Part shown: in pieces, positions 1-14,677 of the stretch
Layout: each line of letters opens with the position of its first letter
Numbering within the stretch: the first letter of the stretch is position 1
DNA from: a virus
Direction: 5' to 3' (one strand)
DNA: 42,088 bases
IMG/VR virus record: IMGVR_UViG_3300046830_000116
Location: 1 to 42,088 of that record
The notes under the pieces: model-generated
Database searches by the model: none
The model's input: the letters and a program-made list of their open reading frames with translations, nothing else
What the model was told of the DNA's origin: nothing
Position numbers and translations under genes: made by a program

Positions 1-21
1 TCTACCAAGGATAATTTTGAG

Positions 22-47
22 GAGAGGGTTGAGCAATCAATCCTCTC
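22..47 (+). terminator. terminator-like hairpin upstream of ribozyme 1
   Basis: GAGAGGGTTGA (22-32) pairs with TCAATCCTCTC (37-47) across a GCAA tetraloop, with one G-U pair. Only three T residues follow, so termination may be weak. A comparable hairpin precedes each of the three ribozyme leaders. Confidence 0.55.
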
Positions 48-55
48 TTTCAAAA

Positions 56-111
56 AACTGTCAGCAAGTGTGTGCTTGCTCTGATGATGGAACAAAAGTT
101 CCGAAACAGTT
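56..111 (+). ncRNA. hammerhead ribozyme 1 (type III)
   Basis: The order of elements is that of a hammerhead with open stem III. Stem III is 56-61 with 106-111 (AACTGT/ACAGTT). The cleavage triplet is GTC, with the cut expected after C62. Stem I is AGCAAG/CTTGCT (63-68, 75-80) with loop TGTGTG. The core CTGATGA is at 81-87, stem II is GGAAC/GTTCC with loop AAAA (89-102), and GAAA is at 103-106. One extra T (88) sits between the core and stem II, which is not canonical. Self-cleavage would leave a 5' end at 63, 80 nt before the ATPase start codon. Confidence 0.85.
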
Positions 112-139
112 CTTTTAACTTTCACAAACTGCGGAGGTG
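112..139 (+). promoter_or_regulatory. sRNA-complementary box plus Shine-Dalgarno, leader 1
   Basis: CTTTTAACTTTC (112-123) follows ribozyme stem III directly, and GGAGGTG is at 133-139. Both are exact reverse complements of GAAAGTTAAAAG and CACCTCC in the small RNA at 5643-5740. The same pair of blocks recurs in leaders 2 and 3. Confidence 0.7.
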
Positions 140-142
140 CAA

Positions 143-1219
143 ATGAGTGAAGAAAACAAAATGATGGAAACCTCTCCATCAAAATCAATGAGGTTAATGA
201 AAAATAATATCGATGCTGGAAAAGTTCCCATGCTTTTAGGTGGTGTCGGTGTTGGTAAATCTGCAATAGTAAATGAGTTCGCTCAGGTGCTAGCTGGAGA
301 TAGAAAAGTGGTTGAGACAATTAGACCTAAGAAAGATGAATTCGGATTCATTGATTTTAGAGCGAGTCTGTACGAGACCATTGAGTTGGGTGGTCTACCT
401 TTTATAGACAATGGAGAACAGAAGAGGGCGTTCCTCGGAAATCTTCCAGTCGCAAATGAGGGTCTACTTTTTATCGATGAGTTCGCACAAGCGACAGCAG
501 ATATGCAGAAGCTTCTCGGACAATTAGTTCATGAGAAAAAGCTGGGCGAGTATCACTTGCCTGAAGGTTGGAATATTGTCATGGCTGGAAACAGAGCGAG
601 TGATAGGTCAGGTGCTAACAAGTTGCTAGCACATATGACCAATAGGTTGTCTCTGATTAATGTCAAGCACGATGTTAATGACTGGCTCGTGTGGGGTTCT
701 GAGAATGGTGTTCATCCATCAATCTTAGGGTTCATAAATTTCATGCCTAAGTTGTTATGGAAGTTCGATGCCAAGGACAGCAATCCTCAACCATCTCCAA
801 GAGCGTGGACAAGGTTGTCTGACATCCTGAAAGTCACACCTGAGAGCGACAAGGATTTACTTCCTTTTCATGCTCAAGGTAATGTCGGTATCGAAGCTGG
901 GTTAGAGTTTATGAATTTCATTACTCTGTCTCAGGATATTCCAAACCTTGCTGACATTGTCGATGGCAAGGAGGTCGATGTTCCTGATGGGTTGGGTCTG
1001 CAATATGCGACTGCTGTTGCTTTGGTCTCGGCTATCCAAGATGCAGACGATAAGTTGAAGCCATCTTACTTCGACAATGCTCTGAAATGGATGGACACTT
1101 TTCCATCGAAAGAGTTCCCTATATTTTTCGGTAGGGCGGTTGTCGGTGCTGTTCCTGATTTGAAAAACACAAAGACTTTCTCTGTGTTCAATTCAGAAAA
1201 CAAGGATGTGCTGATTTAA
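143..1219 (+). CDS. MoxR/CobS-like AAA+ ATPase
   Basis: This 358-residue protein is an AAA+ ATPase of the MoxR/CobS (AAA_5) type. These ATPases use ATP hydrolysis to remodel a partner that often carries a VWA domain. Visible motifs are Walker A GGVGVGKS near residue 35, Walker B LLFIDEF near 110, a sensor-1 region VMAGNRAS near 148 and a likely arginine finger in MTNRL near 168. The start is ATG 143, with GGAGG at 133-137 five bases upstream; an in-frame GTG at 137 lies inside the Shine-Dalgarno and is unlikely. The VWA/metallopeptidase partner is two genes downstream. The leader carries a hammerhead ribozyme and an sRNA-complementary box. CobS-like genes are common in marine phages; the substrate is unknown. 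Confidence 0.85.
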   Translation: MSEENKMMETSPSKSMRLMKNNIDAGKVPMLLGGVGVGKSAIVNEFAQVLAGDRKVVETIRPKKDEFGFIDFRASLYETIELGGLPFIDNGEQKRAFLGNLPVANEGLLFIDEFAQATADMQKLLGQLVHEKKLGEYHLPEGWNIVMAGNRASDRSGANKLLAHMTNRLSLINVKHDVNDWLVWGSENGVHPSILGFINFMPKLLWKFDAKDSNPQPSPRAWTRLSDILKVTPESDKDLLPFHAQGNVGIEAGLEFMNFITLSQDIPNLADIVDGKEVDVPDGLGLQYATAVALVSAIQDADDKLKPSYFDNALKWMDTFPSKEFPIFFGRAVVGAVPDLKNTKTFSVFNSENKDVLI

Positions 1220-1226
1220 CTTGAGA

Positions 1227-1274
1227 GCGTGTGGGAGAAATATTTACCAGTAATATTTTTCCCACCTCGCTTTT
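1227..1274 (+). terminator. terminator hairpin containing the 20-bp palindrome
   Basis: GCG and TGGGA (1227-1236) pair with TCCCA and CGC (1260-1270), and the stem continues with AAATATT/AATATTT (1238-1244, 1252-1258) closed by loop TACCAGT. TTTT follows at 1271-1274. The upper stem is the dispersed palindrome of this genome. The hairpin lies between the ATPase stop and ribozyme 2. Confidence 0.65.
1238..1258. promoter_or_regulatory. dispersed palindrome site 1
   Basis: AAATATTTACCAGTAATATT and one further T: both AT-rich arms around ACCAGT are present, with one extra T in the left arm. The site is intergenic. Confidence 0.6.
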
Positions 1275-1276
1275 GG

Positions 1277-1331
1277 AAACTGTAATCGAGTGGGTACTCG
1301 GTCTGATGATTGCAAAAGCATGAAACAGTTT
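1277..1331 (+). ncRNA. hammerhead ribozyme 2 (type III)
   Basis: Stem III is 1277-1283 with 1325-1331 (AAACTGT/ACAGTTT). The cleavage triplet is GTA, cut expected after A1284. Stem I is ATCGAG/CTCGGT (1285-1290, 1297-1302) with loop TGGGTA. Core CTGATGA is at 1303-1309. Stem II is short, TGC/GCA with loop AAAA (1311-1320), and has a T-T mismatch next to the core. GAAA is at 1322-1325. The stems differ in sequence from ribozyme 1 yet still pair, which argues for a conserved structure. Confidence 0.82.
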
Positions 1332-1359
1332 TTTAACTTTCTTTTATTTTGCGGAGGTG
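1332..1359 (+). promoter_or_regulatory. sRNA-complementary box plus Shine-Dalgarno, leader 2
   Basis: TTTTAACTTTC directly after ribozyme stem III matches 11 of the 12 box positions, and GGAGGTG is at 1353-1359. The spacer between the blocks is 11 nt. Confidence 0.65.
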
Positions 1360-1362
1360 CAT

Positions 1363-2331
1363 ATGAAAAAGAAAAAAATCGATACAGTCTTTCAAGATAC
1401 TTTCACTAAGGTCAGATTTTATTCGTCTGCTATTAGCGGTATCAAAAAAGACAATGGTGCTACCATCGAATTGTCTGCTCTTAAAGATGCGGACTATGAC
1501 TTGGTAGGTGTTAATAAAAAAATCTTTGGTCGTGACATCAACAAAGAGTTCAGACAAATTCAAAATGAATTTAGAAATAAAGTTCTCTATCCAATGACTT
1601 ATCCTTGGAGTGATGGTGGCAAGATGGGTTCTGAGTGGAGGATAGTTTCTAACGAAAAGTATGACTCCTTGATGGCTGGTTTTGAAACTTACAACAAGAA
1701 GTTTTGGAAGTTGGTCGAAAGTGTTCAGAGCAATTACGAGGACATGATTGACGAAGGCATGAAGAGACTCGGTAAGCTTGCTAACAGTAGCGACTACAAA
1801 GAGTGGGAGGACATTGAGCATAAGTTCAATTTCCAAATTACTCCTGATGTTTTTACTTCTTACAATACAAGTAATGACACGAGAGTTAATCTGTCTGAGA
1901 AGCAGAGGAAAGCGATAGAGAATTCTATTGCCTCTAACTACGAAGCTAACTTCAAGTCTTTGTTAGAAGAGGAAAAGAAAACTCTCGAAGAGTCTGTCCA
2001 AAATATCATCGATGCTCTTAAGAAAGATGGGTCAGGAAAATCTTTCTTCAAGGACAGCGTGTTCAAGAATCTGAAAGAGAAAGTTGAGAGGGTCAGAGAC
2101 CTTAACAGAAACATCTATCAGAGTGCTGAGTTGGACAAGGCTATCGACATCATTGTTGGTTCGCTTGCTTCGGTCAATGACATTGACTCATTGAGAGACA
2201 AGGGCGAGATTGGTAAATCTAAAAGAGCCAAGGTCTCGGCTGACATGGAGAAAGCTAAGTCAAGCTTAAATCAAAATACGCTTGGCAAGATTTTCTCAGG
2301 TACTGGATTATCGGAGGGCAACGATGAGTAG
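1363..2331 (+). CDS. unknown protein between the AAA+ and VWA genes
   Basis: I do not recognise this 322-residue protein. It is highly charged, and its second half (from about residue 175) is rich in Glu, Lys and Leu, suggesting long helices or a coiled coil. No signal peptide or membrane segment is visible. The start is ATG 1363 with GGAGG at 1353-1357. The stop overlaps the start of the VWA gene by 8 nt, so the two are probably translationally coupled. Its place between the ATPase and the metallopeptidase-VWA gene suggests a third part of the same complex, by inference only. Confidence 0.8.
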   Translation: MKKKKIDTVFQDTFTKVRFYSSAISGIKKDNGATIELSALKDADYDLVGVNKKIFGRDINKEFRQIQNEFRNKVLYPMTYPWSDGGKMGSEWRIVSNEKYDSLMAGFETYNKKFWKLVESVQSNYEDMIDEGMKRLGKLANSSDYKEWEDIEHKFNFQITPDVFTSYNTSNDTRVNLSEKQRKAIENSIASNYEANFKSLLEEEKKTLEESVQNIIDALKKDGSGKSFFKDSVFKNLKEKVERVRDLNRNIYQSAELDKAIDIIVGSLASVNDIDSLRDKGEIGKSKRAKVSADMEKAKSSLNQNTLGKIFSGTGLSEGNDE

Positions 2332-3865
2332 CTACGATAAATCTAAGAGGGCATTGCATGGTGTCCTCTCTGCCAATGAGGTCATGGTCAAAGCCAAAAG
2401 CAAGTTGATGAATTCCGAATCAGGTCTTGCTTCAATTCTTTTGGGTCTACCTTTGGAAGAGGACAGTTCCTTTGACACGATGGCAACAGATGGGAAGGTA
2501 ATCAAATACAATCCTGACTTTGCTCTCAGTCTGCCAATGGATGAAATCAAAGCTGTTCTAATTCATGAGGCTCTTCATGTTGTATGGGGTCATCATCTTA
2601 GAAGAGGAGACAGACATCCGAAGCTTTGGAACATTGCTACTGACTATGCAATCAATGGCTACATTGTTTATAAGCTTGGCGAACATCTGAATAAGTTGCC
2701 TGAAGGTGCTTTGGTCTCGAACAAGTATGTCAATAAAGATTACTCGGTCATGAGTGCTAATGAAATCTACGACATATTGTTTGGCGATGACGAGGCTCTC
2801 GAAGAGGCTATCGAACAAATGCAACAGCAGATGGGCGATGACTCAGACGAGAACGAAAGTCAGGGTCAGGGTCAAGATGAATCCGAAGAGGATACTCAAG
2901 GCTCAGGCTCAGGCGATGGCGATGAGGAATCCGATGAGGAATCCGAAGGTCAGGGTTCAGGCGGAGATGCAGACGATGATGCAGAAACTGGTGATGACGA
3001 AAATATTACTGGTAATGGTTTGTCCGATGAGCGTTCTCCTCAGACTAATCAATCAGGTCAAATTGATTTGAATGATTTACCTCAGATGGCTGGCGGTGTC
3101 TTTGATATGACTAACGAAGATGGCTCTGAGTTATCTGATAATGAGTTGCAAGAGCAGATAACTAAACTTGATGCTCAGGTAATGATGGCTGAAAAAGTTC
3201 AGGGTATGCTCGTCTCAGGCGGTGCTGGGGTTGATTACCTCGGAGGTCGTAAGTCTGAGTTGGTTGAGCAAGTTGTTCCTTGGGAAGATATGTTCAGAGA
3301 TATGTTCACTAGGGTTCAATCTCAAAACAACACTTGGAAGATGCCTAACCGCAGACACATGGCTCGTGGTATTCATATGCCTAGTAGAGACACCGAACCA
3401 GCTATCAAAAATGTTGTGATGCTGGTTGATGTTTCAGGCTCGACTTATGGAGACAGAGACTCATTCGTGACTGAGGCTCTCGCTATCCTTGAGGAGTTCC
3501 AAGTCAAGAAACTCATGGTCAATAGATATGCTGGTATCTCTCTCAGAAATGAGCAAGGAGAATACTTCGATGTCTACGATACTGACCAAGGAGATGAGAT
3601 GCCTGACAAAGATGAAATCAATTTCAATGGAGATGGAGGTACTAACTTCGATGCACCTTTCAACGCTGTCGAAGAGTTCCTAGACATTGATGAGATTGAT
3701 TTGATTGTTCACTTCTCGGATGGAGAGGGATACTTCAGTCAAGACCACGATGCCTTGCTTGATACTCCAATCTGTCATGTCTTTAGTTATGGTCAAGATG
3801 GCGATAACTATGGCGGTAATGAGATTGAAAAGAAAGGCTTCGGAGAAGTTATCTACATGAGTTAA
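2324..3865 (+). CDS. DUF2201-type metallopeptidase with VWA-like domain (CobT-like)
   Basis: This 513-residue protein combines a zinc-peptidase-like N-terminal domain, with HEALH at residues 81-85 followed by WGHH, and a C-terminal VWA-like domain with the metal-binding DVSGS motif at about 369-373. Between them, around residues 170-230, is a very acidic Gly/Ser/Glu/Asp-rich linker. This arrangement fits the DUF2201 family, which pairs with MoxR-like ATPases much as CobT pairs with CobS. ATG 2324 follows GGAGGG with good spacing and overlaps the preceding stop. Whether it cuts proteins or only binds metal cannot be told from sequence. Confidence 0.82.
   Translation: MSSYDKSKRALHGVLSANEVMVKAKSKLMNSESGLASILLGLPLEEDSSFDTMATDGKVIKYNPDFALSLPMDEIKAVLIHEALHVVWGHHLRRGDRHPKLWNIATDYAINGYIVYKLGEHLNKLPEGALVSNKYVNKDYSVMSANEIYDILFGDDEALEEAIEQMQQQMGDDSDENESQGQGQDESEEDTQGSGSGDGDEESDEESEGQGSGGDADDDAETGDDENITGNGLSDERSPQTNQSGQIDLNDLPQMAGGVFDMTNEDGSELSDNELQEQITKLDAQVMMAEKVQGMLVSGGAGVDYLGGRKSELVEQVVPWEDMFRDMFTRVQSQNNTWKMPNRRHMARGIHMPSRDTEPAIKNVVMLVDVSGSTYGDRDSFVTEALAILEEFQVKKLMVNRYAGISLRNEQGEYFDVYDTDQGDEMPDKDEINFNGDGGTNFDAPFNAVEEFLDIDEIDLIVHFSDGEGYFSQDHDALLDTPICHVFSYGQDGDNYGGNEIEKKGFGEVIYMS
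3001..3016. promoter_or_regulatory. dispersed palindrome site 2
   Basis: AAATATTACTGGTAAT: complete left arm and core, partial right arm, inside the VWA gene. Confidence 0.5.
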
Positions 3866-3881
3866 TCTCAATGAGCGTTCT

Positions 3882-3928
3882 GAGAGGAGGTTTTTAGGGT
3901 GGTAGTAAACCTTAGCCTCCTCTCTTTT
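3882..3928 (+). terminator. intrinsic terminator after the VWA gene
   Basis: GAGAGGAGG (3882-3890) pairs perfectly with CCTCCTCTC (3916-3924), followed by TTTT. An inner GGTTT/AAACC alternative may add structure. It lies 17 nt after the VWA stop codon and upstream of ribozyme 3. Confidence 0.75.
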
Positions 3929-3966
3929 CGCCAGCGAGAGAGCCTCTATGGAGGTCAAATTCAGGA

Positions 3967-4050
3967 AACTGATAGGGAGAATGTGTGTTTTCCCCTGATG
4001 ACTCAATATGAGAGCGTGTAAGCGTTGGTTCAAAAGAACCGAAATCAGTT
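3967..4050 (+). ncRNA. hammerhead ribozyme 3 with stem II insertion
   Basis: Stem III is 3967-3973 with 4044-4050 (AAACTGAT/ATCAGTT pairing, 7 bp). The cleavage triplet is ATA, cut expected after A3974. Stem I is GGGAGAA/TTTTCCC (3975-3981, 3988-3994, one G-U) with loop TGTGTG, identical to ribozyme 1. Core CTGATGA is at 3995-4001. Stem II GGTTC/GAACC with loop AAAA (4027-4040) is preceded by 25 extra bases (4002-4026) that include a small CTCA-ATA-TGAG hairpin. GAAA is at 4041-4044. The insertion makes activity less certain than for copies 1 and 2. Confidence 0.72.
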
Positions 4051-4052
4051 CC

Positions 4053-4075
4053 TTTTAACTTTCAAATGCGAGGTG
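4053..4075 (+). promoter_or_regulatory. sRNA-complementary box plus Shine-Dalgarno, leader 3
   Basis: CTTTTAACTTTC immediately follows ribozyme 3, and GAGGTG lies six bases on. The box matches the small RNA exactly and the Shine-Dalgarno block matches 6 of 7 positions. Confidence 0.65.
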
Positions 4076-4078
4076 CAT

Positions 4079-4258
4079 ATGAAAAAAATATATGAAAAGT
4101 TTTTGAGTCTTTTTAAAACTCAAGGGGTGGAAGATAAACCTTATTATCTTTCGTATGAGAATGGTGGTGTTCTTGTTTTGCACAATCCTGTGGAACAGGG
4201 AGGAGAAAATATTACGAGTAATATTTCCTCAAGCGTCACAAAAACTGGAGGTGCGTAA
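4079..4258 (+). CDS. small unknown protein in ribozyme-led unit 3
   Basis: A 59-residue protein of unknown function with a basic N-terminus (MKKIYEKF). ATG 4079 is chosen because it sits six bases after the GAGGTG ribosome site, just as in leaders 1 and 2; an earlier in-frame ATG at 4025 lies inside the ribozyme and is not credible. The stop shares bases with the next start (TAATG). The gene contains a perfect-armed copy of the dispersed palindrome, read as NITSNIS. Confidence 0.7.
   Translation: MKKIYEKFLSLFKTQGVEDKPYYLSYENGGVLVLHNPVEQGGENITSNISSSVTKTGGA
4207..4226. promoter_or_regulatory. dispersed palindrome site 3 (best copy)
   Basis: AAATATTACGAGTAATATTT: two perfect 9-bp arms around a GA centre. 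This is the most complete copy and it lies inside a coding gene. Confidence 0.65.
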
Positions 4259-4557
4259 TGGCAGAAGTAAAAGAAACAATGTTGTACATGGATGAGCGAG
4301 TTGCTTTGAAGAATGAGGTAAGTGATTTGCTTGATACTATTTCTGTGATAGCTGATGACTTACTTTCTTATCAAGAAAGTATCGACAGACTAGATGGAAT
4401 TAGTCTAGATAAAGTGAGAGACTTGCGAAGGTCACTTATAACTTTCTCTAACATCTGCGAGGGTGGAGTCATTGAAGAGTGTCAAGTTGCTCAGGCATCA
4501 CTTGGTTTCTTAATCAGAGATATTAAGGAAGATAGAAAACAAGGAGGTTCGCTATGA
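4258..4557 (+). CDS. unknown protein, 99 aa
   Basis: This is a small acidic, mostly helical-looking protein with no recognised domain. Its start overlaps the preceding stop and its own stop overlaps the next start by 4 nt, so it is translated as part of the ribozyme-led unit 3. GGAGGTGCG lies just upstream. No signal peptide or membrane segment is visible. Confidence 0.75.
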   Translation: MAEVKETMLYMDERVALKNEVSDLLDTISVIADDLLSYQESIDRLDGISLDKVRDLRRSLITFSNICEGGVIEECQVAQASLGFLIRDIKEDRKQGGSL

Positions 4558-5411
4558 GTATCTTAGATAAGAAATGGAATAGGGAGTCTTTTGATTACAC
4601 AAGCTACCAACATGATATGTATTGGTATGTCAAAGAGTATGGACATTGGATAGACAATAACCTTGACGATGATGAATTATTCAAAGACATGAAGTCTCAT
4701 TTACACAGACTCTGTGAGGAGGATGACAGTTGGGATGAAGTGCTTGCTGATTATCTTGGAGAAGATATACACAAAGTTGAGTATGGAGAGCGAGGCAATT
4801 TCATGCTTCATCATCCTTGCATTATCTCTGTCATGTATCCATCTACAAGGTGGCATATTCATGAGACTAATCTCAGATATTTTTCTAAGCTTGTCGCTTT
4901 GAGAAAAGCTTATCTTGAAAAAGATGTTGATGCTTTTCTCATGATGATAGAAAGACCTTATCGAATACCTGAGTTCATTGCTTGGTGCTTGGATAAAAGA
5001 AACAAGTTGTCTAAGAAAAAATACTGGGAAGTCATTCGTTGGTTATGGACTGATACAGAAAATGTGTACGAACATTTCAAAGAATGGCTCGCTCTGTTAG
5101 TGGACTTCGATACCAAGGAAGTGAGGAAGATGATGGACAAAGAGGATAAGAAAACCTTTGACTCTTTGCCTAATTACTTCATGGTCTTTCGAGGTGGAGA
5201 ACACGAGAATATGTCTTGGACTCTAAGCAAGGAAAAAGCTGAGTGGTTTCAGAATAGATACTCTCACAAAGATGCACAGCTATTTCGTAGGATGGTTAAG
5301 AAAAGCGATGTGCTTGCTTACATCAATGCGAGGAACGAGGAAGAGATTATTCTTAGACCTGACCTTAGTTCTTTTGTTCAGTTCTTGAACGATAAGGAGT
5401 TTTTAGGATAA
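4554..5411 (+). CDS. unknown protein, 285 aa
   Basis: I do not recognise this 285-residue protein. It is rich in Trp, Tyr and charged residues (for example MYWYVKEYGHWIDNN near the N-terminus), looks soluble and lacks signal or membrane segments. AGGAGG precedes ATG 4554. It is the last gene of ribozyme-led unit 3 and is followed within 25 nt by a strong intrinsic terminator. Confidence 0.8.
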   Translation: MSILDKKWNRESFDYTSYQHDMYWYVKEYGHWIDNNLDDDELFKDMKSHLHRLCEEDDSWDEVLADYLGEDIHKVEYGERGNFMLHHPCIISVMYPSTRWHIHETNLRYFSKLVALRKAYLEKDVDAFLMMIERPYRIPEFIAWCLDKRNKLSKKKYWEVIRWLWTDTENVYEHFKEWLALLVDFDTKEVRKMMDKEDKKTFDSLPNYFMVFRGGEHENMSWTLSKEKAEWFQNRYSHKDAQLFRRMVKKSDVLAYINARNEEEIILRPDLSSFVQFLNDKEFLG

Positions 5412-5433
5412 CAAAACCAAGGAAGTAAAAACT

Positions 5434-5483
5434 AGCGGAGGCTATGTGGTATTAATTTACTGCATAGTCTCCGCTTTTTTTTT
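5434..5483 (+). terminator. strong intrinsic terminator
   Basis: AGCGGAGGCTATG (5434-5446) pairs with CATAGTCTCCGCT (5463-5475), with one G-U pair and a 16-nt loop. Nine T residues follow. It ends the unit that finishes at 5411. Confidence 0.9.
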
Positions 5484-5510
5484 GGTCAAAAATCCTCTCC
5501 CGAAAACCAT

Positions 5511-5526
5511 GACTGGTAAATATTTT
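5511..5526. promoter_or_regulatory. dispersed palindrome site 4
   Basis: GACTGGTAAATATTTT: core plus right arm, with the extra A variant. It lies in the gene-free hub upstream of the DnaA boxes. Confidence 0.45.
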
Positions 5527-5574
5527 TTAAAAGTGCAGAAACACTTGGGTGGAAACTGGTGGCAGAAAATTGTA

Positions 5575-5595
5575 TGTGGATAACTCTGTGGATAA
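5575..5595 (-). promoter_or_regulatory. pair of perfect DnaA boxes
   Basis: TGTGGATAA occurs at 5575-5583 and 5587-5595. Its complement TTATCCACA is the consensus DnaA box. Two exact 9-mers 12 bp apart, with no other copy seen in the window, are very unlikely by chance. An AT-rich tract lies at 5519-5530 and the sRNA promoter starts 12 bp downstream. The site may be a replication origin, a DnaA-controlled promoter, or both. Confidence 0.7.
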
Positions 5596-5607
5596 GCTGT
5601 TAATAAT

Positions 5608-5636
5608 TTGACGAGGTGCAAGCCGATTGCTATACT
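5608..5636 (+). promoter_or_regulatory. sigma70-type promoter of the small RNA
   Basis: TTGACG (-35) and TATACT (-10) are separated by exactly 17 bp. The start of transcription is expected near 5643. No start codon with a ribosome site follows before the terminator, so the product is probably an RNA. Confidence 0.85.
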
Positions 5637-5642
5637 ATTTGA

Positions 5643-5740
5643 ACAGCGACAGAAATTGTCGTTATTAAGAAGTGTTTTAACGACACCTCCTAAGAAAGTT
5701 AAAAGTTGAGAGAGGTAATAGACTGCCTCTCTCTTTTTTT
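5643..5740 (+). ncRNA. predicted trans-acting small RNA
   Basis: A ~98-nt transcript is bounded by a strong promoter and a strong terminator, with no credible ORF. TGTCGTTA (5657-5664) pairs with TAACGACA (5678-5685). An alternative CGACA/TGTCG hairpin (5647-5661) excludes it. Just 3' of the main hairpin are CACCTCC (5684-5690), an anti-Shine-Dalgarno sequence, and GAAAGTTAAAAG (5694-5705). These are complementary to the ribosome site and to the CTTTTAACTTTC box of all three ribozyme leaders. The likely role is control of translation of the genes at 143, 1363 and 4079. Pairing is read by eye; expression is inferred. Confidence 0.75.
5708..5740 (+). terminator. intrinsic terminator of the small RNA
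   Basis: GAGAGAGG (5708-5715) pairs perfectly with CCTCTCTC (5726-5733) across a 10-nt loop, followed by seven T residues. Confidence 0.9.
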
Positions 5741-5786
5741 ATATAATGGGTTATTGGTTTATTTTTTTCATACCAATTCTCCCAAT

Positions 5787-5841
5787 GAGGAGGTGCTAGT
5801 ACAAAAGATAATTCTCCAAATTCTCTAGCTAGTGCCTCCTC
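5787..5841 (+). other. long hairpin with a sequestered Shine-Dalgarno-like sequence
   Basis: GAGGAGGTGCTAG (5787-5799) pairs with CTAGTGCCTCCTC (5829-5841) over 13 bp, including two G-U pairs, with a 29-nt loop. The left arm holds AGGAGGTG, but no start codon follows at useful spacing. There is no T-run, so it is not a standard terminator. Its function is unknown. Confidence 0.5.
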
Positions 5842-5853
5842 TCTAAATTAAAA

Positions 5854-5882
5854 TTGAATTACTGATAGCATTTCTCTACAAT
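5854..5882 (+). promoter_or_regulatory. promoter giving a leaderless transcript
   Basis: TTGAAT and TACAAT are 17 bp apart. The expected start of transcription falls on the ATG at 5889, so the mRNA would be leaderless. A direct repeat ATAGCATT (5865-5872 and 5881-5888) overlaps the spacer and the start region and could be an operator. Confidence 0.75.
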
Positions 5883-5888
5883 AGCATT

Positions 5889-6200
5889 ATGTATGCAGTT
5901 GTAAGACACACTTACGAATTAGATTTGCCTGAACCTTTTGTGAAATCTTCTCAGAAAAGTATTGGAAGATGGGTGCATAAGGTGTGGGTACATGACTCTG
6001 AGTTAGATGCTATTGCTCATGCAATTAAATTACTTGACGAACCTCTATTGAAACATGATGAGTGGGCAATGGACATAGCTATAGAACAGTTAAAAAATAA
6101 TAGGTTCTATCAGTTGGGTAAGGAAAGCGTAGCGATAGCAGAAGTAGAACCTTCGCCTGACATAGTGTACTTACATGATAACGATAACCAAATTAATTGA
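5889..6200 (+). CDS. unknown protein, 103 aa, leaderless
   Basis: No family is recognised. This 103-residue protein is soluble-looking, with an HTYELDLPEPF start and an acidic end. There is no ribosome-binding site; the promoter places the transcription start at the ATG. It is followed after 9 nt by the ribbon-helix-helix gene, with which it forms a short operon. That makes a role in early control plausible but unproven. Confidence 0.7.
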   Translation: MYAVVRHTYELDLPEPFVKSSQKSIGRWVHKVWVHDSELDAIAHAIKLLDEPLLKHDEWAMDIAIEQLKNNRFYQLGKESVAIAEVEPSPDIVYLHDNDNQIN

Positions 6201-6209
6201 GGTGGCTAT

Positions 6210-6548
6210 ATGGCTGAGAAAAATTTATATATTAGGTGTGATGAAGAAACCTATGTGAAAGCAAGAGAGTTGGCACAGAAAAATCTTCGCTCTTTAAACA
6301 GACAAGTAATTCATTTAATCAATGAAGCTTATGATAGCGTTGTGAAATCAGAACCGCAGATTGCAGAACCACAACCTATCCAAGATGAAGAAGATGACAA
6401 GTATCTAGGCATGAGCAAGGAGGATTATTATAAACACAGAGACGATGTTCCTCGTGAAGTCTTAGAAGAATGGGAAGGTCAAGGCAAACTTACTCAGTCA
6501 GGTTTAGAAAAGCTTTCTGAAATAAGGAAATCGGACTCGTCTGACTAA
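6210..6548 (+). CDS. ribbon-helix-helix (Arc-type) DNA-binding protein
   Basis: Residues 1-45 (NLYIRCDEETYVKARELAQK onward) fit an Arc/MetJ-like ribbon-helix-helix domain: a short beta strand, then two helices. Such proteins bind DNA as dimers on inverted or direct repeats. The remaining ~65 residues are acidic and probably flexible. GAGGTG lies upstream of ATG 6210. It is the only clear small DNA-binding regulator in the window, so it is a candidate ligand for the dispersed palindrome or for the ATAGCATT repeats at its own promoter. The 3' end overlaps the convergent gene by 59 nt. Confidence 0.7.
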   Translation: MAEKNLYIRCDEETYVKARELAQKNLRSLNRQVIHLINEAYDSVVKSEPQIAEPQPIQDEEDDKYLGMSKEDYYKHRDDVPREVLEEWEGQGKLTQSGLEKLSEIRKSDSSD

Positions 6549-7047
6549 GATACCAAAAGTTTAGCATTGCATCTGAGCAATCAATCACACTATCAAGTTG
6601 CGACTGAGTAATCCTATCAGGGTTCTCAGTCATGACTTTCCAAAACTCTTTCTCCTTCTTACTCCCACAATCTTCCACTAATCTGTTTTGAACTTGGCTG
6701 AGTACAAGTGGTTTTGTATTGACGCTGGGAGAACTATTACTAGTAAATATTTTGTCAAGGTCGCCAGCAGAACTCTGTGGGAAAACTCCTGACCTAGAAA
6801 TCAAACCAAGATATTTGTCACAAACATTGTGTTGCTTCTCGTTGATTAGTTGTTCGGTATAAAGCTTGTCGATGATATGCTGGTCAAAGACTATGGCTCT
6901 ACCAACCTTGGTATTATCAATGCTTCTAACTTCTACCTTGTGTCTCAGATGTAGATAGGAATTTCCTACATCATTTACGATAAGAACTTCCTCAGAAATC
7001 CCAGTCGAAGTCATCTTCTTGTTCTTCAATCTCTCCATACCTTCCAT
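6490..7047 (-). CDS. unknown protein, about 185 aa
   Basis: The function is not recognised. The protein is up to 185 residues. The start is uncertain: ATG codons at 7047, 7038 and 7014 all lie inside the end of the primase-helicase gene and none has a strong ribosome site, so translational coupling is likely. The C-terminal part (KEKEFWKVMTENPDRITQSQ onward) looks helical. The 3' end overlaps the convergent ribbon-helix-helix gene by 59 nt with no terminator between, so the two transcripts would be antisense to each other there. Confidence 0.65.
   Translation of the reverse strand: MEGMERLKNKKMTSTGISEEVLIVNDVGNSYLHLRHKVEVRSIDNTKVGRAIVFDQHIIDKLYTEQLINEKQHNVCDKYLGLISRSGVFPQSSAGDLDKIFTSNSSPSVNTKPLVLSQVQNRLVEDCGSKKEKEFWKVMTENPDRITQSQLDSVIDCSDAMLNFWYLSQTSPISLFQKAFLNLTE
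6736..6752. promoter_or_regulatory. dispersed palindrome site 5
   Basis: ATTACTAGTAAATATTT: central ACTAGT with a partial left and a full right arm, inside the 185-aa gene. Confidence 0.5.
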
Positions 7048-8806
7048 TTACTGCATTGTATTTAAGCTTAACACAGCCAAGTTTAGCGTTCCAATACCAT
7101 CTAGCTTTGGTGCAATGTATTTCTACTGCCTCGTTGCCTCTATGGACTGCTAAACAGACATCAGGTTTGGTACTCCATGCCATTGACTTAGCAATATCAA
7201 GCGGTGTTGGGTGTCCTACTTTCTCTTTGTTGAATGGCTTGCTTGGATGTGCTACGAACCAAACCAAACAATCAGTCTGCTTGGCAAACAGTTGCACCTT
7301 GCTCAACATATCACTAACCATATCTGTTTCTAGAGCATAGCTTTTATCTGAATGTATAAAGTTAAATGGGTCTATCACTAACATCCTACATCCCATCCTT
7401 AGAATACTTGCTTGTGCTTTTTCTAAGACAGCTTCTATTGTCGGCAATCCTCCATCCAAATAATCTTGAAACAATATATGTTCCTCTATCCATGCCGAAG
7501 CATCATTCCTCTCTGACTCTGTCATCCTTTCGTTGTGTCCTTTGAAAAATGGCTTACCAGTTATTATCTGTGCGAGTTGTACGCTGTGAAATGAGGGCGG
7601 TTTTTCAAAGCTAGCATAACAAGTTTTCCAACCATACAGCTTGCCAGCATTGACTATCACTTGGTCGAGGAAAGCAGACTTCCCATGCCCAGCCCATCCA
7701 GTCACGACATAAAGCTGACCAGTCTGAAGTGTGAACAAATCATCTAAAGACTTTATCCCAGTCGATATACCTTGTGGCTTACCATCTTTGTACAAAGTCT
7801 CGAACTCGTCTGAGTAATGCTTCATGCTATGCAATCCATGTAATTCAATAGGTTCTGCATTGAGGACTTGCTTCCTCAGAGTTGCCTCATCTGTGTTGAT
7901 AAGTAATTCATTAGCATCTTTGTATCCTTTGTAATCAACACGATAGCACTTTGCTTTCCCAATCCTTCTGCTCAATTCATGAACTAAACAATCTCCAGCA
8001 GTATCAGTATCTGAAGCTAGTATTATTTTGTCATACTTGTCCAACAAATCTTTGTCGTTCCAAACATACTTGAACCTACCATCTTCACTTGGGTCTACCT
8101 TCCCATCAGTAATCTTATTAGGACTTCCATTTGGCACAGAGAAAACAGAGACATCCATATCTGCCTCCAAGAAAGCTTGCTTGATTGATAAGGCATCCAT
8201 CTCTCCTTCTGTTATAACCAATCCCTCAATCCTTTTGCTTTCGTCTCCTTCCTTTCCCCACAATCTGCTAGCAGAATTTGTCCACCAAAAGTCTTTCTTG
8301 CCATTGGCTGTACGCCATTTACAAGCAGAAACTTTTCCGTTTTCCCAGTATGGAAAACCTATTACCAGTAAATGTTTTGTCTCCTCCCAGACACAATCCA
8401 TGTTTTTGGCGGTATCCAAATCAATCTTTCTATTGCCCAGCCAATCTCCAATCTTCTGCTCGCACTCCGATAGCTTCTCTTCTTTTATTGTACCGACAGA
8501 TATGCTTCCTCCTTTGGAACTCATGATGCTTAGATTACCACTTGTTGGTAGTGTGGCTGATGTTGTTGAGTCGCTTACTATTTCCATACTTCTTTCTCCT
8601 TTTCTAGATATGCCTCCCTTGATATTACAATGATGGCAATAATAGGTAATCATATCTATGCTGATGTTCACACTCAGAGGTGTGTCCTTTTTGTTTTTCT
8701 TTCTTTGGCTAGAACAATTAGGACAGATGATTTTATATTGACCTACCTTAAGACCTGATGTCCTTGGGTTGCTATCAATATGCTGGCGAATTTCTTTCTT
8801 TTCCAT
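6992..8806 (-). CDS. phage primase-helicase (T7 gp4/Twinkle type)
   Basis: This 604-residue protein primes and unwinds DNA at the phage replication fork. A zinc-binding domain is at residues 28-62 (CPNC and CHHC). A TOPRIM domain follows with VITEGEMDAL near 200 and ASDTDTAGD near 260. A RecA-fold helicase domain has Walker A GWAGHGKS near 370 and Walker B-like MLVIDPFNF near 475. Length and order fit the bifunctional family. ATG 8806 has AGGAG seven bases upstream; a GTG two codons earlier is too close to it. The gene follows an iteron-like array, and no DNA polymerase is seen in the window. Confidence 0.93.
   Translation of the reverse strand: MEKKEIRQHIDSNPRTSGLKVGQYKIICPNCSSQRKKNKKDTPLSVNISIDMITYYCHHCNIKGGISRKGERSMEIVSDSTTSATLPTSGNLSIMSSKGGSISVGTIKEEKLSECEQKIGDWLGNRKIDLDTAKNMDCVWEETKHLLVIGFPYWENGKVSACKWRTANGKKDFWWTNSASRLWGKEGDESKRIEGLVITEGEMDALSIKQAFLEADMDVSVFSVPNGSPNKITDGKVDPSEDGRFKYVWNDKDLLDKYDKIILASDTDTAGDCLVHELSRRIGKAKCYRVDYKGYKDANELLINTDEATLRKQVLNAEPIELHGLHSMKHYSDEFETLYKDGKPQGISTGIKSLDDLFTLQTGQLYVVTGWAGHGKSAFLDQVIVNAGKLYGWKTCYASFEKPPSFHSVQLAQIITGKPFFKGHNERMTESERNDASAWIEEHILFQDYLDGGLPTIEAVLEKAQASILRMGCRMLVIDPFNFIHSDKSYALETDMVSDMLSKVQLFAKQTDCLVWFVAHPSKPFNKEKVGHPTPLDIAKSMAWSTKPDVCLAVHRGNEAVEIHCTKARWYWNAKLGCVKLKYNAVNGRYGEIEEQEDDFDWDF
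8361..8378. promoter_or_regulatory. dispersed palindrome site 6
   Basis: ATTACCAGTAAATGTTTT, inside the primase-helicase. It is read in a different codon phase from the other coding copies, which argues against a protein-level cause. Confidence 0.45.
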
Positions 8807-8821
8807 TCTCACTCTCCTATA

Positions 8822-8877
8822 TACTTACTATATATATACTTACTTAAATACTTACTAAGTACCTACTACCACTTACT
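8822..8877. repeat. iteron-like TACTTACT array
   Basis: Five near-identical octamers: TACTTACT at 8822, 8837 and 8849, TACCTACT at 8860 and CACTTACT at 8870. Spacings are 15, 12, 11 and 10 bp, roughly one helical turn. The last copies overlap the stop of the upstream gene. It could be a protein-binding array or origin element next to the primase-helicase, or a repeated AGTAAGTA leader motif in the mRNA. Confidence 0.55.
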
Positions 8878-9117
8878 ATCTACCATGCGATTTATTTCAT
8901 TCGCAAGAACTTTTCTAGACACAAGCGGATAATCATAAAGGTTCTTAACTGCCTCCAAGATATTACTAGAACTAATTTCATATCTCATGCAGAGATTCTT
9001 AAAAGACTCTGACTGGAAATACTCAATAGCTTCTGTGGAAATATCTAGGTTTTTGGAAGCGAGGTCTCGTATTGCTTGTTGCAAAATTTTTTTATCGAGA
9101 TGCTTACCAAAATCCAT
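8866..9117 (-). CDS. unknown small protein, 83 aa, leaderless
   Basis: An unrecognised, helical-looking 83-residue protein begins MDFGKHLDKK. ATG 9117 is chosen because a TTGAAA/TATACT promoter with 17-bp spacing ends eight bases before it, making the ATG the transcription start. A TTG at 9153 would add a Lys-rich tail, but it is the -35 box itself. It is the first gene of the - strand replication operon, ahead of the iteron-like array and primase-helicase, so an initiator or regulator role is possible but unproven. Confidence 0.65.
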   Translation of the reverse strand: MDFGKHLDKKILQQAIRDLASKNLDISTEAIEYFQSESFKNLCMRYEISSSNILEAVKNLYDYPLVSRKVLANEINRMVDSKW

Positions 9118-9124
9118 GAGAGGC

Positions 9125-9153
9125 AGTATAGATTTTTTTTTTATTTTTTTCAA
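9125..9153 (-). promoter_or_regulatory. promoter of the primase-helicase operon (leaderless)
   Basis: On the - strand, TTGAAA (9153-9148) and TATACT (9130-9125) have exactly 17 bp between them. Seven bases later comes ATG 9117, so the transcript should start at or beside the start codon. Confidence 0.8.
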
Positions 9154-9177
9154 ATTTAGTGAACCGCTTTCTCATTT

Positions 9178-9207
9178 TTGTGGTACAGTATGTACATATT
9201 ATATACA
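9178..9207 (+). promoter_or_regulatory. divergent promoter with operator-like inverted repeat
   Basis: TTGTGG (9178-9183) with TATATA or TATACA (9200-9207) at 16-18 bp spacing. GTACA-GTA-TGTAC (9183-9195) is an inverted repeat in the spacer and looks like an operator. The transcript would have only a few bases before ATG 9219. Confidence 0.5.
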
Positions 9208-9218
9208 CATTAACTACT

Positions 9219-9470
9219 ATGAAATACGAAATTGAAAAAGATGTGCCAATGCCTGAGCGTAATGTGAGAGGGAAACCTATCAAGTACGACTTGCCTCTTG
9301 TCGAGATGGATAAGGGAGACCATATCTTTATTAAGATTAGTAAGTCTAAGATTGATAAGGAAATCAAGATAATAAGAAACGCTGTCCATAGGTTTAAATC
9401 TGTGCGACTTGATATGTCGTTCTCTGTTATTAAGATGAAAGGTGGTGTTGGTATATGGCGAACTAACTAA
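9219..9470 (+). CDS. unknown small protein, 83 aa
   Basis: This basic 83-residue protein (MKYEIEKDVPMPERN...) of unknown function is a type common at the head of phage early operons. No ribosome site precedes ATG 9219, and the mapped promoter leaves at most a very short leader. It is the first gene of the + strand recombination operon. Confidence 0.7.
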   Translation: MKYEIEKDVPMPERNVRGKPIKYDLPLVEMDKGDHIFIKISKSKIDKEIKIIRNAVHRFKSVRLDMSFSVIKMKGGVGIWRTN

Positions 9471-9488
9471 CTTTATAAGGGAGGCGAA

Positions 9489-9788
9489 ATGGGATTCGAT
9501 ACACAATGGCAAGAGAGACAAGTCTATCGTTGCATCAAGGTCATTCAAAGAATTCGCAGAAAGAACAGACCTTTATTTATTGAGGACTTCTATACTCTTG
9601 ACGATAAGGTCAAGGAGTTAGTGAAGGAAACCGATAGGTTAAGAAGAAGAATAGAAAGACTTGAAACCAAGCGAGCAGAGTTGAGGGAAGAATTTAACCT
9701 CAAATGGTTTGGTGTAAAGTATTCTCCTTCTACTTGGACATATTGGGCAGAAGCGATTAGAAGGTTCTTTTCTTTACCACAAGATTAA
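9489..9788 (+). CDS. small basic coiled-coil protein, 99 aa
   Basis: No family is recognised. Residues ~38-70 form a charged heptad-like stretch (DDKVKELVKETDRLRRRIER), probably a coiled coil. Net charge is basic, so nucleic-acid binding is possible. GGGAGG precedes ATG 9489, and the stop shares bases with the start of the nuclease gene (TAATG), suggesting coupled translation. Confidence 0.75.
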   Translation: MGFDTQWQERQVYRCIKVIQRIRRKNRPLFIEDFYTLDDKVKELVKETDRLRRRIERLETKRAELREEFNLKWFGVKYSPSTWTYWAEAIRRFFSLPQD

Positions 9789-10678
9789 TGAAGTACACTA
9801 ATAAGAATAACTTGCCTGAAGAGATTGTTCGTGCTGTCCAGCAAGACACATACTCTAAGGGCGAGGCTTCGATAAGCGTGACTGGATTACTCTCTGCACC
9901 TCGACCTAATATCTTGGCGAGAGAACATCACAACGAATTAGTTGTCGATGTATCAGACGAGATATGGAAGATATTAGGAACAGCTTCGCACTACATTATG
10001 GAACAAGCCAACATCGGTCACGAAGGAACGATAACCGAAGAACGCTTGTACTGGAATGTGCGAGGCTGGACTATCTCAGGACAATTTGACTCGATGTCAT
10101 TGAAGGACTCTGCTCTCAGAGATTTGAAAGTCACTTCCTCATGGACTGTGATGCACGCTCTGAAGGAAGGGAAGATTGAATGGGAACAACAGTTGAATTG
10201 TTATGCTTGGTTGTACAAGAAAAATCACAACAAGGATGTTGAGAAGTTGGAGATTATAACCATCAATAGAGATTGGTCTGAGAGACAGAAGCAAAGAAGC
10301 GGTGGGGATTATCCTGATGCTCAGGTATCAGTAATACCTATCAAGCTTTGGACTGAAGAAGAGCAAGAAGAATTCATTGTGTCTAGAGTCAAGGCACATC
10401 AAGAGGCAGATGCTGACTATCTTATTAGTAAGGACTTGCCCTTGTGTACTGACGAGGAACGATGGAAACAAGCTGACTCTTACAGAGTATTGAAGAAAAA
10501 CAGAGTACGAGCAATTCGTGTTCTGAATACCGAAGAGGAAGTGAACGATTTTATTAACAAACAAAACGATAAAGATTTGTATGTGGACTTTGTCAAAGGC
10601 GAGAGTCGTAAGTGCAAAGACTACTGCAATGTCTCACAGTTTTGTAATCAATATGCTATGGAGGTAGCCGATGGATAA
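9788..10678 (+). CDS. RecB/Cas4-like PD-(D/E)XK exonuclease
   Basis: This 296-residue nuclease fits the phage RecB/Cas4-like group, which resects double-stranded ends for single-strand-annealing recombination. Visible are GTASHYIMEQ near 63-72, the catalytic Asp in SGQFDSM near 100, DLKVTSSW near 111-118 (the D-x-K motif) and QQLNCYAWL near 134-142 (the Q-x3-Y motif). A C-terminal C-x3-C-x5-C (CKDYCNVSQFC, near 276) suggests an iron-sulphur cluster as in Cas4 and AddB, although the fourth Cys is not assigned. The annealing protein and SSB-like genes follow. Confidence 0.85.
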   Translation: MKYTNKNNLPEEIVRAVQQDTYSKGEASISVTGLLSAPRPNILAREHHNELVVDVSDEIWKILGTASHYIMEQANIGHEGTITEERLYWNVRGWTISGQFDSMSLKDSALRDLKVTSSWTVMHALKEGKIEWEQQLNCYAWLYKKNHNKDVEKLEIITINRDWSERQKQRSGGDYPDAQVSVIPIKLWTEEEQEEFIVSRVKAHQEADADYLISKDLPLCTDEERWKQADSYRVLKKNRVRAIRVLNTEEEVNDFINKQNDKDLYVDFVKGESRKCKDYCNVSQFCNQYAMEVADG

Positions 10679-10683
10679 AAATA

Positions 10684-10700
10684 AAACTAGTAATATTTAC
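10684..10700. promoter_or_regulatory. dispersed palindrome site 7
   Basis: AAACTAGTAATATTTAC in the 44-nt gap between the exonuclease and annealing-protein genes; core plus full right arm. Confidence 0.5.
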
Positions 10701-10722
10701 TATACAAATCAGGCGGTGGATT

Positions 10723-11403
10723 ATGTCTGATTACAAACAAGTATGGGAGACACTCTCGAAAGTTGATGTCTCAGAGTATGTGGAAGAGAAGATGAACTTG
10801 TCTTATCTTTCATGGAGTAGAGCATGGTACTTACTGTCACAGAACTTTCCTGATGCTAAGTATCTGTATCATGAGCCGAAGAAATTTGAGGATGGCACTT
10901 TAGAAGTTGCTGTCACTATAACCATTGGCGAGTGCAGTCGTTCTGCTACCTTGCCAGTTATGGACTACAAGAACAATGCAATTATCAATCCTGATAGTAG
11001 GCAAATCAACGACAATAAACAGAGATGTTTTACGAAGGCGATTGCCATGTTTGGATTGGGTATATCATTGTACATGGGTTTCTCGGATGACTTGCCTGAC
11101 GAAAGTAAGGACAAGAAGTCTGAGGAAGTAAAAAAGAAAACAGCTAAGAAAGTTGTCAAGATGAAAGAGGAACAGACTCAGAAAGAAGATGAGCCAGCTT
11201 ACGATGAAGGATGGGCAGAAGCTTTCGTTGAGGGTATGTCTTTGATTATCACAGCTTTTGATAACACCGAAGAACTCAGGTCGAACTACAAGTCTAATGC
11301 AAAGCATATCGCTGTATTGGGCGAGAAGTTTCCTGACCATAAGGAAAAGTTAGATACGCTGTTTACAGAAAAAGCCGAAGAACTTAACAAGAAGGAGGGT
11401 TAA
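10723..11403 (+). CDS. Sak3-type (DUF1071) single-strand annealing protein
   Basis: This 226-residue protein matches the pattern of DUF1071/Sak3 annealing proteins: a YLSWSRAWYLL segment near residue 28, then a core ending RCFTKAIAMFGLGISLYMG near 105-124. Such proteins coat resected single strands and anneal homologous sequences during phage recombination. The C-terminal half is Lys/Glu-rich and probably flexible. It sits between the exonuclease and an SSB-like gene, the usual context. GGCGGTG lies upstream of ATG 10723. Confidence 0.8.
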   Translation: MSDYKQVWETLSKVDVSEYVEEKMNLSYLSWSRAWYLLSQNFPDAKYLYHEPKKFEDGTLEVAVTITIGECSRSATLPVMDYKNNAIINPDSRQINDNKQRCFTKAIAMFGLGISLYMGFSDDLPDESKDKKSEEVKKKTAKKVVKMKEEQTQKEDEPAYDEGWAEAFVEGMSLIITAFDNTEELRSNYKSNAKHIAVLGEKFPDHKEKLDTLFTEKAEELNKKEG

Positions 11404-11404
11404 T

Positions 11405-11725
11405 ATGGCAGACGAAAGACCGCAAAGCGATGGTGCAATCTATCAGAACAATTACAAAAAGACTGATAAGCAACCTGATTGGACTGGGAAGATTGAGATA
11501 CACAGAGATACTCTGAAAGAGTTGGTAGAGAAAGTTAAGACTGGAGAACCAGCAGAACTCAGAGTTGCTCTTTGGGATAGGACTAGTAAGAATGGCAACG
11601 ATTACAAGTATGCTCGTCTTGATATTCCTATGAAACAAAATACTGAGACTAAAGCTGAAGAGCCAAAACCTGAAGAGGAGAAGCGAACTCATCCAGTCTT
11701 GGAAGATATTGATGTGCCATTCTAG
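11405..11725 (+). CDS. SSB-like single-stranded DNA-binding protein
   Basis: This 106-residue protein has a short beta-rich part (WTGKIEIHRDTL, LRVALWDRTSKNGNDYKY) and an acidic tail ending EDIDVPF. The tail resembles the C-terminal tip that SSB proteins use to recruit partners. Its position right after the annealing protein supports a single-strand-binding role. It is shorter than cellular SSB, and a full OB fold cannot be confirmed by eye. GGAGGG lies before ATG 11405. Confidence 0.6.
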   Translation: MADERPQSDGAIYQNNYKKTDKQPDWTGKIEIHRDTLKELVEKVKTGEPAELRVALWDRTSKNGNDYKYARLDIPMKQNTETKAEEPKPEEEKRTHPVLEDIDVPF

Positions 11726-11730
11726 TTGTT

Positions 11731-11946
11731 ATGGAATTCGAGTATGACAGCAAGATAGGTTTTGAAGAGAACTTCAAGCTTTGGTACAACGAGAACTCTA
11801 GGGAAAGGAGGGCATATAACCAAGAGCCACATCCTTTTCCTATTGGCAGAAGGATTTTCACAGAACTTTATGGCAATAGAATTCTTGAAAAGAAAGACTT
11901 AACTAATTTTTTTGGAGGTGCAGATGGCACAGAAACAGAGAAGTAA
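11731..11946 (+). CDS. unknown small protein, 71 aa
   Basis: A 71-residue protein rich in Phe, Tyr, Arg and Glu, with no family recognised. Its 3' end overlaps the next gene by 23 nt, and that gene's ribosome site lies inside it. It starts 5 nt after the SSB-like gene and belongs to the same operon. Confidence 0.65.
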   Translation: MEFEYDSKIGFEENFKLWYNENSRERRAYNQEPHPFPIGRRIFTELYGNRILEKKDLTNFFGGADGTETEK

Positions 11947-12202
11947 TCTACCATCATACGATGGCTACCATAAGATATTCGATAGGGTATATGGGATAGT
12001 AGAAAGGAGATTTGAATTTGAGGTTCATGAGGTTTTAGAAACTGTATTCAATGAACTGGAGAAGAAAGAAGAACCAAGCTACTCGGCAATCAAGAACATG
12101 ATGGATGCACTCAAGCAAAGAACTATCAGAGAACTTCAGGACTTTGAAAGCGAGATAGGAGAATTGCTTGAAGGCAGAGCAACAATGGGAGTAGAAGAAT
12201 GA
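11924..12202 (+). CDS. unknown helical protein, 92 aa
   Basis: No family is recognised; mostly charged helical sequence (HEVLETVFNELEKKEEPSYS). ATG 11924 is chosen because GGAGGTG lies at 11914-11920 with five to seven bases of spacing; an in-frame TTG at 11912 lies inside that site. The stop overlaps the next start by 4 nt. Confidence 0.72.
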   Translation: MAQKQRSNLPSYDGYHKIFDRVYGIVERRFEFEVHEVLETVFNELEKKEEPSYSAIKNMMDALKQRTIRELQDFESEIGELLEGRATMGVEE

Positions 12203-12471
12203 GCAGAGGACTTTACACATTTGAGTTATCTATCAATAGGATTGAAGAGATAACAGTTGAGGCTGACAGTCTTGAAGATGCTAAAAGGCAAGTAGACCTA
12301 GCTGATAATGAAGATTGGGAAGTTGTCTATAGCGAAGGAGTTGATTTGACTTGTGTCTGCACACCAGCTATGAGAGACGAGATAGAAGATGCAGAAGTCA
12401 TCGAAGAAAACGCTGACAAATATCAAGCTATCAAATCTGACAACGCAGATGTTTTCACGCAGAAACTTTGA
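12199..12471 (+). CDS. small acidic protein with an ADSLEDA motif, 90 aa
   Basis: The N-terminal half (YTFELSINRIEEITVEADSL, then EDAKRQV) has a strand-strand-helix pattern shared with the product at 13982 (VEAESLEEAVDKL). The two may be distant paralogues of a small phage beta-beta-alpha family. The function is unknown. The start overlaps the previous stop. Confidence 0.7.
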   Translation: MSRGLYTFELSINRIEEITVEADSLEDAKRQVDLADNEDWEVVYSEGVDLTCVCTPAMRDEIEDAEVIEENADKYQAIKSDNADVFTQKL

Positions 12472-12485
12472 CCAGTAATATTTTA
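12471..12485. promoter_or_regulatory. dispersed palindrome site 8
   Basis: ACCAGTAATATTTTA: core and right arm, touching the stop codon of the 90-aa gene in the 24-nt gap that follows. Confidence 0.5.
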
Positions 12486-12495
12486 TGGAGAAGCT

Positions 12496-12633
12496 ATGGA
12501 CAAGATTGATTTTACAAACCTAAAAAGATATTTGACTTTGCTTGATGACTGCATCGGAAGTTGCAACAAAGCAACAGAGTATGCAAAGCATAAAGTTTGG
12601 CAAGAAGTAGAAAGACTTGAGGGGGAAGCATGA
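12496..12633 (+). CDS. very small protein, 45 aa
   Basis: An open frame MDKIDFTNLKRYLTLL... of 45 residues fills the gap between two genes. GGAG lies upstream of ATG 12496, and the stop overlaps the next start (ATGA). It is helical-looking with two Cys in a C-x3-C spacing. No family is recognised; tight coupling supports it as real. Confidence 0.6.
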   Translation: MDKIDFTNLKRYLTLLDDCIGSCNKATEYAKHKVWQEVERLEGEA

Positions 12634-12971: not shown

Positions 12972-13013
12972 ACTTAATTGGTACTTTGCTAACATCATAC
13001 CTAGTCATAACAC

Positions 13014-14526: not shown

Positions 14527-14571
14527 TCCAAAACAACTCCCACCTGCGAGCTAGATTTTTTAGCTCCATTG

Positions 14572-14586
14572 AAAATATTACCAGTC
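14572..14586. promoter_or_regulatory. dispersed palindrome site 10
   Basis: AAAATATTACCAGTC in direct-repeat copy 1; left arm and core. Confidence 0.45.
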
Positions 14587-14662
14587 ATAGTTTGTACTAC
14601 AAGGGTTTCAGTTCTGCTGATTTCTGGCTGTCACCTGCAACCCAGATTTTTCGAGCTTTGAG

Positions 14663-14677
14663 AAAATATTACTAGTC
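14663..14677. promoter_or_regulatory. dispersed palindrome site 11
   Basis: AAAATATTACTAGTC in direct-repeat copy 2; left arm and core. Confidence 0.45.

Follow-up and report, generated by a model that had tools for sequence, protein, structure and literature searches.

The question raised by this locus is whether twin DnaA boxes in a phage genome mark a replication origin or serve another function, such as the control of a neighbouring small RNA gene. Both possibilities were put forward in the initial annotation of the analysed stretch of DNA (42,088 bases, hereafter the window), in which two exact boxes 12 bp apart on the complement strand were reported beside an AT-rich run, a palindrome copy and the promoter of a small RNA (sRNA). 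All of these elements were found: the boxes occupy positions 5575-5583 and 5587-5595, the palindrome copy positions 5512-5530, and the AT-rich run and the promoter lie next to them (Table 1). At both exact boxes the + strand reads TGTGGATAA, which corresponds to TTATCCACA on the - strand, and the boxes start 12 bp apart, leaving a gap of 3 bp. The window contains no further exact copy of TTATCCACA (Markov expectation of 0.23-0.45 for the whole window). The looser consensus TTWTNCACA shows no window-wide enrichment (4 found vs 6.7 expected), and therefore the signal consists of the tandem exact pair and its conservation. Together with a weak third box, the exact boxes form an array with 11-12 bp steps, whose register to the -35 hexamer of a sigma-70-type promoter is fixed. 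Judged from the sequence, the DnaA-box observation is thus correct and far from chance.

Table 1. Coordinates of the features of the window discussed in the text.
Feature	Position	Strand	Description
MoxR-like AAA+ ATPase gene leader	113-145	+	predicted sRNA target; UUUUAACUUUC..GGAGGUGC..AUG
Leader of gene 1363-2331	1331-1365	+	predicted sRNA target; 10-nt contiguous seed match
Leader of gene starting at 4079	4053-4081	+	predicted sRNA target, by complementarity
Upstream terminator	5434-5483	+	intrinsic, closes the left (+) early operon; 18-pair stem and T run; nearly invariant in 8 contigs
AT-rich palindrome copy	5509-5530		AAATATTTACYRGTAAATATTT with half site ACTGGTAAATATTTTT; most relatives have it upstream of their boxes
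DnaA box 1	5575-5583	-	exact TTATCCACA; -35 lies 33 bp downstream
DnaA box 2	5587-5595	-	exact TTATCCACA; -35 lies 21 bp downstream
Weak third box	5598-5606	-	TGTTAATAA on the + strand; -35 lies 10 bp downstream
Sigma-70-type promoter	5608-5636	+	TTGACG (5608)-17-TATACT (5631); 10/12 matches; TG before the -10; conserved in close contigs
Predicted sRNA (~100 nt)	5643-5740	+	5' hairpin, CACCUCC linker (anti-Shine-Dalgarno), terminator hairpin and U run
Anti-SD and seed	5683-5705	+	ACACCUCCUAAGAAAGUUAAAAG; complementary to early-gene leaders
sRNA intrinsic terminator	5708-5740	+	hairpin with U run
Iteron-like array	8822-8868	-	4 copies of WAGTARGTA, AT-rich (8818-8870), directly upstream of the primase-helicase gene

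The phage group was characterized through its relatives. For the first 25 kb of the window no near DNA match to known phages was obtained, and a host search revealed no relative among genome contigs. A circular-looking relative has a length of 58,929 bp and a 20-bp end repeat, which points to the window being a fragment. Cultured phages with the same portal protein (Pelagibacter phages HTVC023P and HTVC027P, and DSL-LC04) encode a DNA polymerase of their own and differ in the replication module.

Conservation in relatives had been proposed as a check on the boxes. Among eight aligned close contigs (the window and seven relatives), both boxes are present in six and a single box, in the form TGTGAATAA, in the other two; there is hardly any variation in the boxes, the promoter or the 3' portion of the RNA in this set, and the sequence just upstream and the 5' hairpin of the RNA are variable. 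A profile search yielded 80 loci, with primase-helicase identity from 98% down to ~49%, and many of these relatives have two to four DnaA boxes, on the same strand, at the equivalent site 1.2-1.7 kb beyond the helicase gene. Of the 75 uncultured phages in the tree set, 40 have DnaA boxes only, 13 NrdR-like boxes only (described below), 9 both types and 13 neither, the last class holding by the box rules used. Boxes in the same orientation are thus present at the syntenic place in 49 of the 75 phages, at primase-helicase identities down to ~50%. Within 34 dereplicated loci, 46 DnaA-consensus boxes were counted in 40.8 kb of syntenic region vs 57 in 363 kb elsewhere, and same-strand pairs separated by at most 70 bp numbered 31 vs 0; the spacings are chiefly 11, 12 and 23 bp.

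The twin-box pattern was found in at least 120 contigs of a viral collection vs 6 for the reversed control, and the earlier remark that DnaA boxes are known but uncommon in phages needs to be qualified to that extent. Among the other twin-box viral contigs, a promoter-like site abuts the boxes in 4 of 125 and CCTCC follows downstream in none of the 125, so that the complete arrangement was not encountered outside this phage group.

Most substitutions in box 2 affect the W and N positions of TTWTNCACA, while boxes 1 and 3 are more variable; at the third position L006 has TGTGAATAG, and relatives show consensus matches or near-matches. This pattern bears on the idea that the repeats bind a phage protein (e.g. 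the ribbon-helix-helix-like product of gene 6210-6548) and resemble DnaA boxes by convergence. That gene adjoins the site and is syntenic in relatives, and further operator-like palindromes are present, but exact TTATCCACA dominates even in phages whose helicases share only ~50% identity, and many of the variant boxes still fit the DnaA consensus; we consider such an operator highly unlikely.

The box site is placed between the terminator of the left + operon and an sRNA-sized unit, whose promoter is among the two best + strand promoter matches within positions 1-15000; transcription of the sRNA would start near 5643. As at DnaA-regulated promoters, high-affinity boxes lie near the promoter, with two exact boxes and one weak box abutting the -35. 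In dereplicated variants the box starts are located 12, 23 and 35 bp upstream of the -35 (15, 14 and 12 variants, respectively), and in the window 10, 21 and 33 bp upstream. Such phasing to the -35 is what a transcription regulator would be expected to show. It is not needed if the array titrates host DnaA and thereby stops host initiation, with the adjacent promoter being incidental, and neither is the NrdR-like replacement described below. The boxes are of high affinity and multi-copy phage DNA would offer many sites; however, there are only two or three boxes per genome, and titration appears decidedly unlikely.

Other sequence elements accompany these promoters. Copies of the palindrome AAATATTTACYRGTAAATATTT start at 1238, 5512, 6739 and 15825 in the window and also occur near the hub in relatives; this palindrome is possibly an operator of a phage DNA-binding protein. 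Many promoters of relatives (e.g. L161 and L216) have a TTGCA-N-TGCAA-type inverted repeat over the -35, possibly a further operator.

In sister clades, paired CwAyATnTwG cores stand beside the -35 of the equivalent promoter. The region contains thirteen such NrdR-like core pairs, of which 12 have a spacing of 31-32 bp, compared with 0 pairs in 332 kb elsewhere; the core expression tolerated C at one consensus T, and the motif, unlike the spacing, was partly shaped by these data. NrdR sites consist of two 16-bp boxes with 15-16 bp spacers (PMC12176259, PMC12051234), described as lying ~31-32 bp apart (PMC2892513), and the putative operators of the sister phages have the same layout, i.e. two palindromic boxes at 31-32 bp with a 15-16 bp spacer at a promoter. 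Both kinds of box occur in nine phages (L161-L164, L166, L186, L188, L193 and L202), with the NrdR-like pair upstream of the DnaA boxes, and on the tree of 75 phages no fewer than five transitions between the states DnaA, NrdR and both are required. In E. coli, nrdAB is under the control of DnaA as well as NrdR (PMC8203912, PMC12176259). No phage-encoded match to Bac_DnaA_C or to the ATP-cone was found in 15 large relatives, and thus the regulators would be host proteins. The open-licence literature searched contained no report of NrdR boxes in phages.

If the boxes were a DnaA-dependent origin, DnaA would open the AT-rich palindrome side, followed by loading of the host replisome and the phage primase-helicase; the sRNA promoter would then supply transcriptional activation or a primer, as at oriLambda. 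Strong boxes in tandem and in one orientation fit this idea, as does the AT-rich palindrome found nearby in many relatives. Moreover, the group has a primase-helicase, but the 15 large relatives yielded no match to DNA_pol_A, just as they yielded none to Bac_DnaA_C or the ATP-cone, so that host replication proteins are probably needed. However, the least stable DNA beside the boxes reaches only the top 10-34% in duplex instability, which means that the box cluster is not flanked by an unusually unstable unwinding element of the oriC type. DnaA-trios, expected within 16 bp of a box (PMC8287927), are likewise not a feature of the site: the pattern occurs in 10 of 17 relatives vs 43% in shuffles, i.e. 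near background, and is absent from the window. Furthermore, related phages with the same primase-helicase lack the boxes or have them swapped. The GC-skew check suggested in the initial annotation placed the turning point ~7 kb from the boxes, where it is explained by gene direction, which the skew tracks. GC skew was dropped as an origin test: on either strand the coding-strand GC3 skew is positive, and the cumulative skew reverses inside the helicase operon.

A better candidate origin in sequence terms is the iteron-like array directly upstream of the primase-helicase gene (Table 1), which coincides with the least stable DNA of the early region. WAGTARGTA occurs 79 times in 6.6 kb vs 17 times in 390 kb elsewhere, a ratio that is descriptive, the motif having been read off the same region. 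These iterons near the helicase gene are common to the DnaA and NrdR clades, and are conserved in phages with both types and in many boxless ones. Instability, DnaA-trios, box-less relatives and iterons all speak against the claim that replication starts at the boxes, which are probably not the phage replication origin; we judge a DnaA-dependent origin at this place unlikely. An origin can overlap a DnaA-activated promoter, as oriLambda does (PMC8203912), so the two roles are not exclusive. Of the two functions initially proposed, control of the sRNA by DnaA is supported, by the fixed -35 register and the NrdR-like swap in sister clades, and a replication origin is not, as a primary role.

The predicted sRNA has its own promoter, a terminator and a CCUCC linker outside the main hairpins, as would an anti-SD sRNA. 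It folds with an MFE of -30.8 kcal/mol (z -4.9), and the 3' part of its linker (AGAAAGTTAAAAG onwards) is invariant in the 8 contigs despite the diverging 5' half. In most of 26 sRNA variants a CCUCC linker connects a 5' hairpin to a terminator. The probability that CCUCC is unpaired is 0.43 in the window (i.e. partly unpaired) and up to 1.0 in relatives, and in many variants it is mostly unpaired. CCTCC is located downstream of the promoter in 14 of 16 dereplicated box-bearing loci vs 0.9 expected. No Rfam family matched the sRNA at the gathering score, and locally one match at chance level was obtained; in the open-licence literature searched no report of DnaA boxes driving a phage sRNA was found. 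Two further elements follow the sRNA. A hairpin, GAGGAGGTGCTAG..CTAGTGCCTCCTC (5787-5841), lies between it and the next gene, and its GGAGGTG could also pair with the sRNA. A promoter-like TTGAAT..TACAAT (5854-5889) ends 7 bp before the ATG at 5889; a transcript from this site would possibly be leaderless and escape the anti-SD RNA.

The element ACACCUCCUAAGAAAGUUAAAAG is complementary in two parts to the leaders UUUUAACUUUC..GGAGGUG at 113, 1331 and 4053, which precede three genes of one operon, the first being the MoxR-like ATPase gene. An unrestricted duplex-energy leader test, run first, was not significant (p = 0.066). A restricted test of contiguous matches, with hammerhead/CAG-type leaders and trimmed sRNA linkers chosen after that value was seen, gave 7.5 nt for the sRNA linkers of 23 phages against their own leaders and 5.7 nt for swapped ones (permutation p ~2e-5, with phylogenetically related rows). 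Because of this later choice of leader definition, the co-varying complementarity is supportive rather than conclusive of an sRNA that acts in trans on early leaders. The MoxR-like gene leader also contains a hammerhead-ribozyme-like three-way junction (CUGAUGA..GAAA) at 55-117, and hammerhead-like cores precede early genes in many relatives. The hammerhead-like leader was not called by Rfam, and low-threshold matches were at chance level.

It is quite probable, on sequence grounds, that the boxes form a host-DnaA-controlled promoter of a phage sRNA, i.e. that this sRNA is under transcriptional control by host sensors of replication and dNTPs. From the box array, its fixed register, the promoter, the terminator, the sRNA architecture, the NrdR-like swap and the co-varying complementarity, all read directly in the DNA, we infer DnaA or NrdR binding, the direction of regulation, target repression and infection timing. 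With the boxes acting as a DnaA-binding regulatory array of the sRNA promoter, host DnaA would occupy the two strong boxes and spread to the weak box nearest the promoter, contacting RNA polymerase or covering the -35, and the DnaA level or its ATP/ADP state would thus set sRNA transcription. By analogy with nrdAB of E. coli (PMC8203912), transcription would be activated at low DnaA and repressed by a DnaA-ATP filament, and the sign in the phage may differ. By means of its anti-SD and seed, the sRNA would in turn base-pair with early-gene leaders, including that of the MoxR-like ATPase operon, and block their translation.

Each piece of this arrangement has a precedent. Yfr1 of marine cyanobacteria resembles the phage sRNA in being short and in having a C/U-rich anti-SD stretch flanked by a 5' hairpin and a terminator, but it is a cellular gene with a different linker. 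To our knowledge, no DnaA or NrdR boxes are associated with Yfr1. The E. coli nrdAB operon has tandem DnaA and NrdR boxes upstream of one promoter (PMC8203912, PMC12176259), at which DnaA activates or represses depending on its nucleotide state (PMC8203912); in the phages, by contrast, the product is an sRNA, and individual phages keep DnaA boxes, NrdR-like boxes or both. At oriLambda phage transcription is also stimulated by host DnaA (PMC8203912), but there it activates the origin, whereas the locus described here would produce a short terminated RNA; no initiator gene was recognised near the boxes. The CcnA ncRNA at oriC of Caulobacter likewise lies beside DnaA boxes and targets 5' UTRs (PMC8959179), but it is chromosomal and proposed to be activated by CtrA, and CCUCC is absent from the text of PMC8959179.

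More broadly, we see about an even chance that in this widespread group of uncultured, mostly aquatic phages an sRNA promoter is wired interchangeably to DnaA or NrdR, both of them host sensors of the state of DNA synthesis, and that the sRNA silences early operons, whose messages often have hammerhead-like leaders, tuning early expression to host replication or dNTP supply. The sRNA-target network proposed here is directly testable and, if the proposal is true, the locus warns against taking every DnaA box in a phage as the sign of an origin. These phages would then read either the replication licence (DnaA) or the dNTP gauge (NrdR) of the host to set a regulatory RNA, and the repeated exchange of the two sensors at a single promoter would constitute a natural experiment on what phages need to sense.
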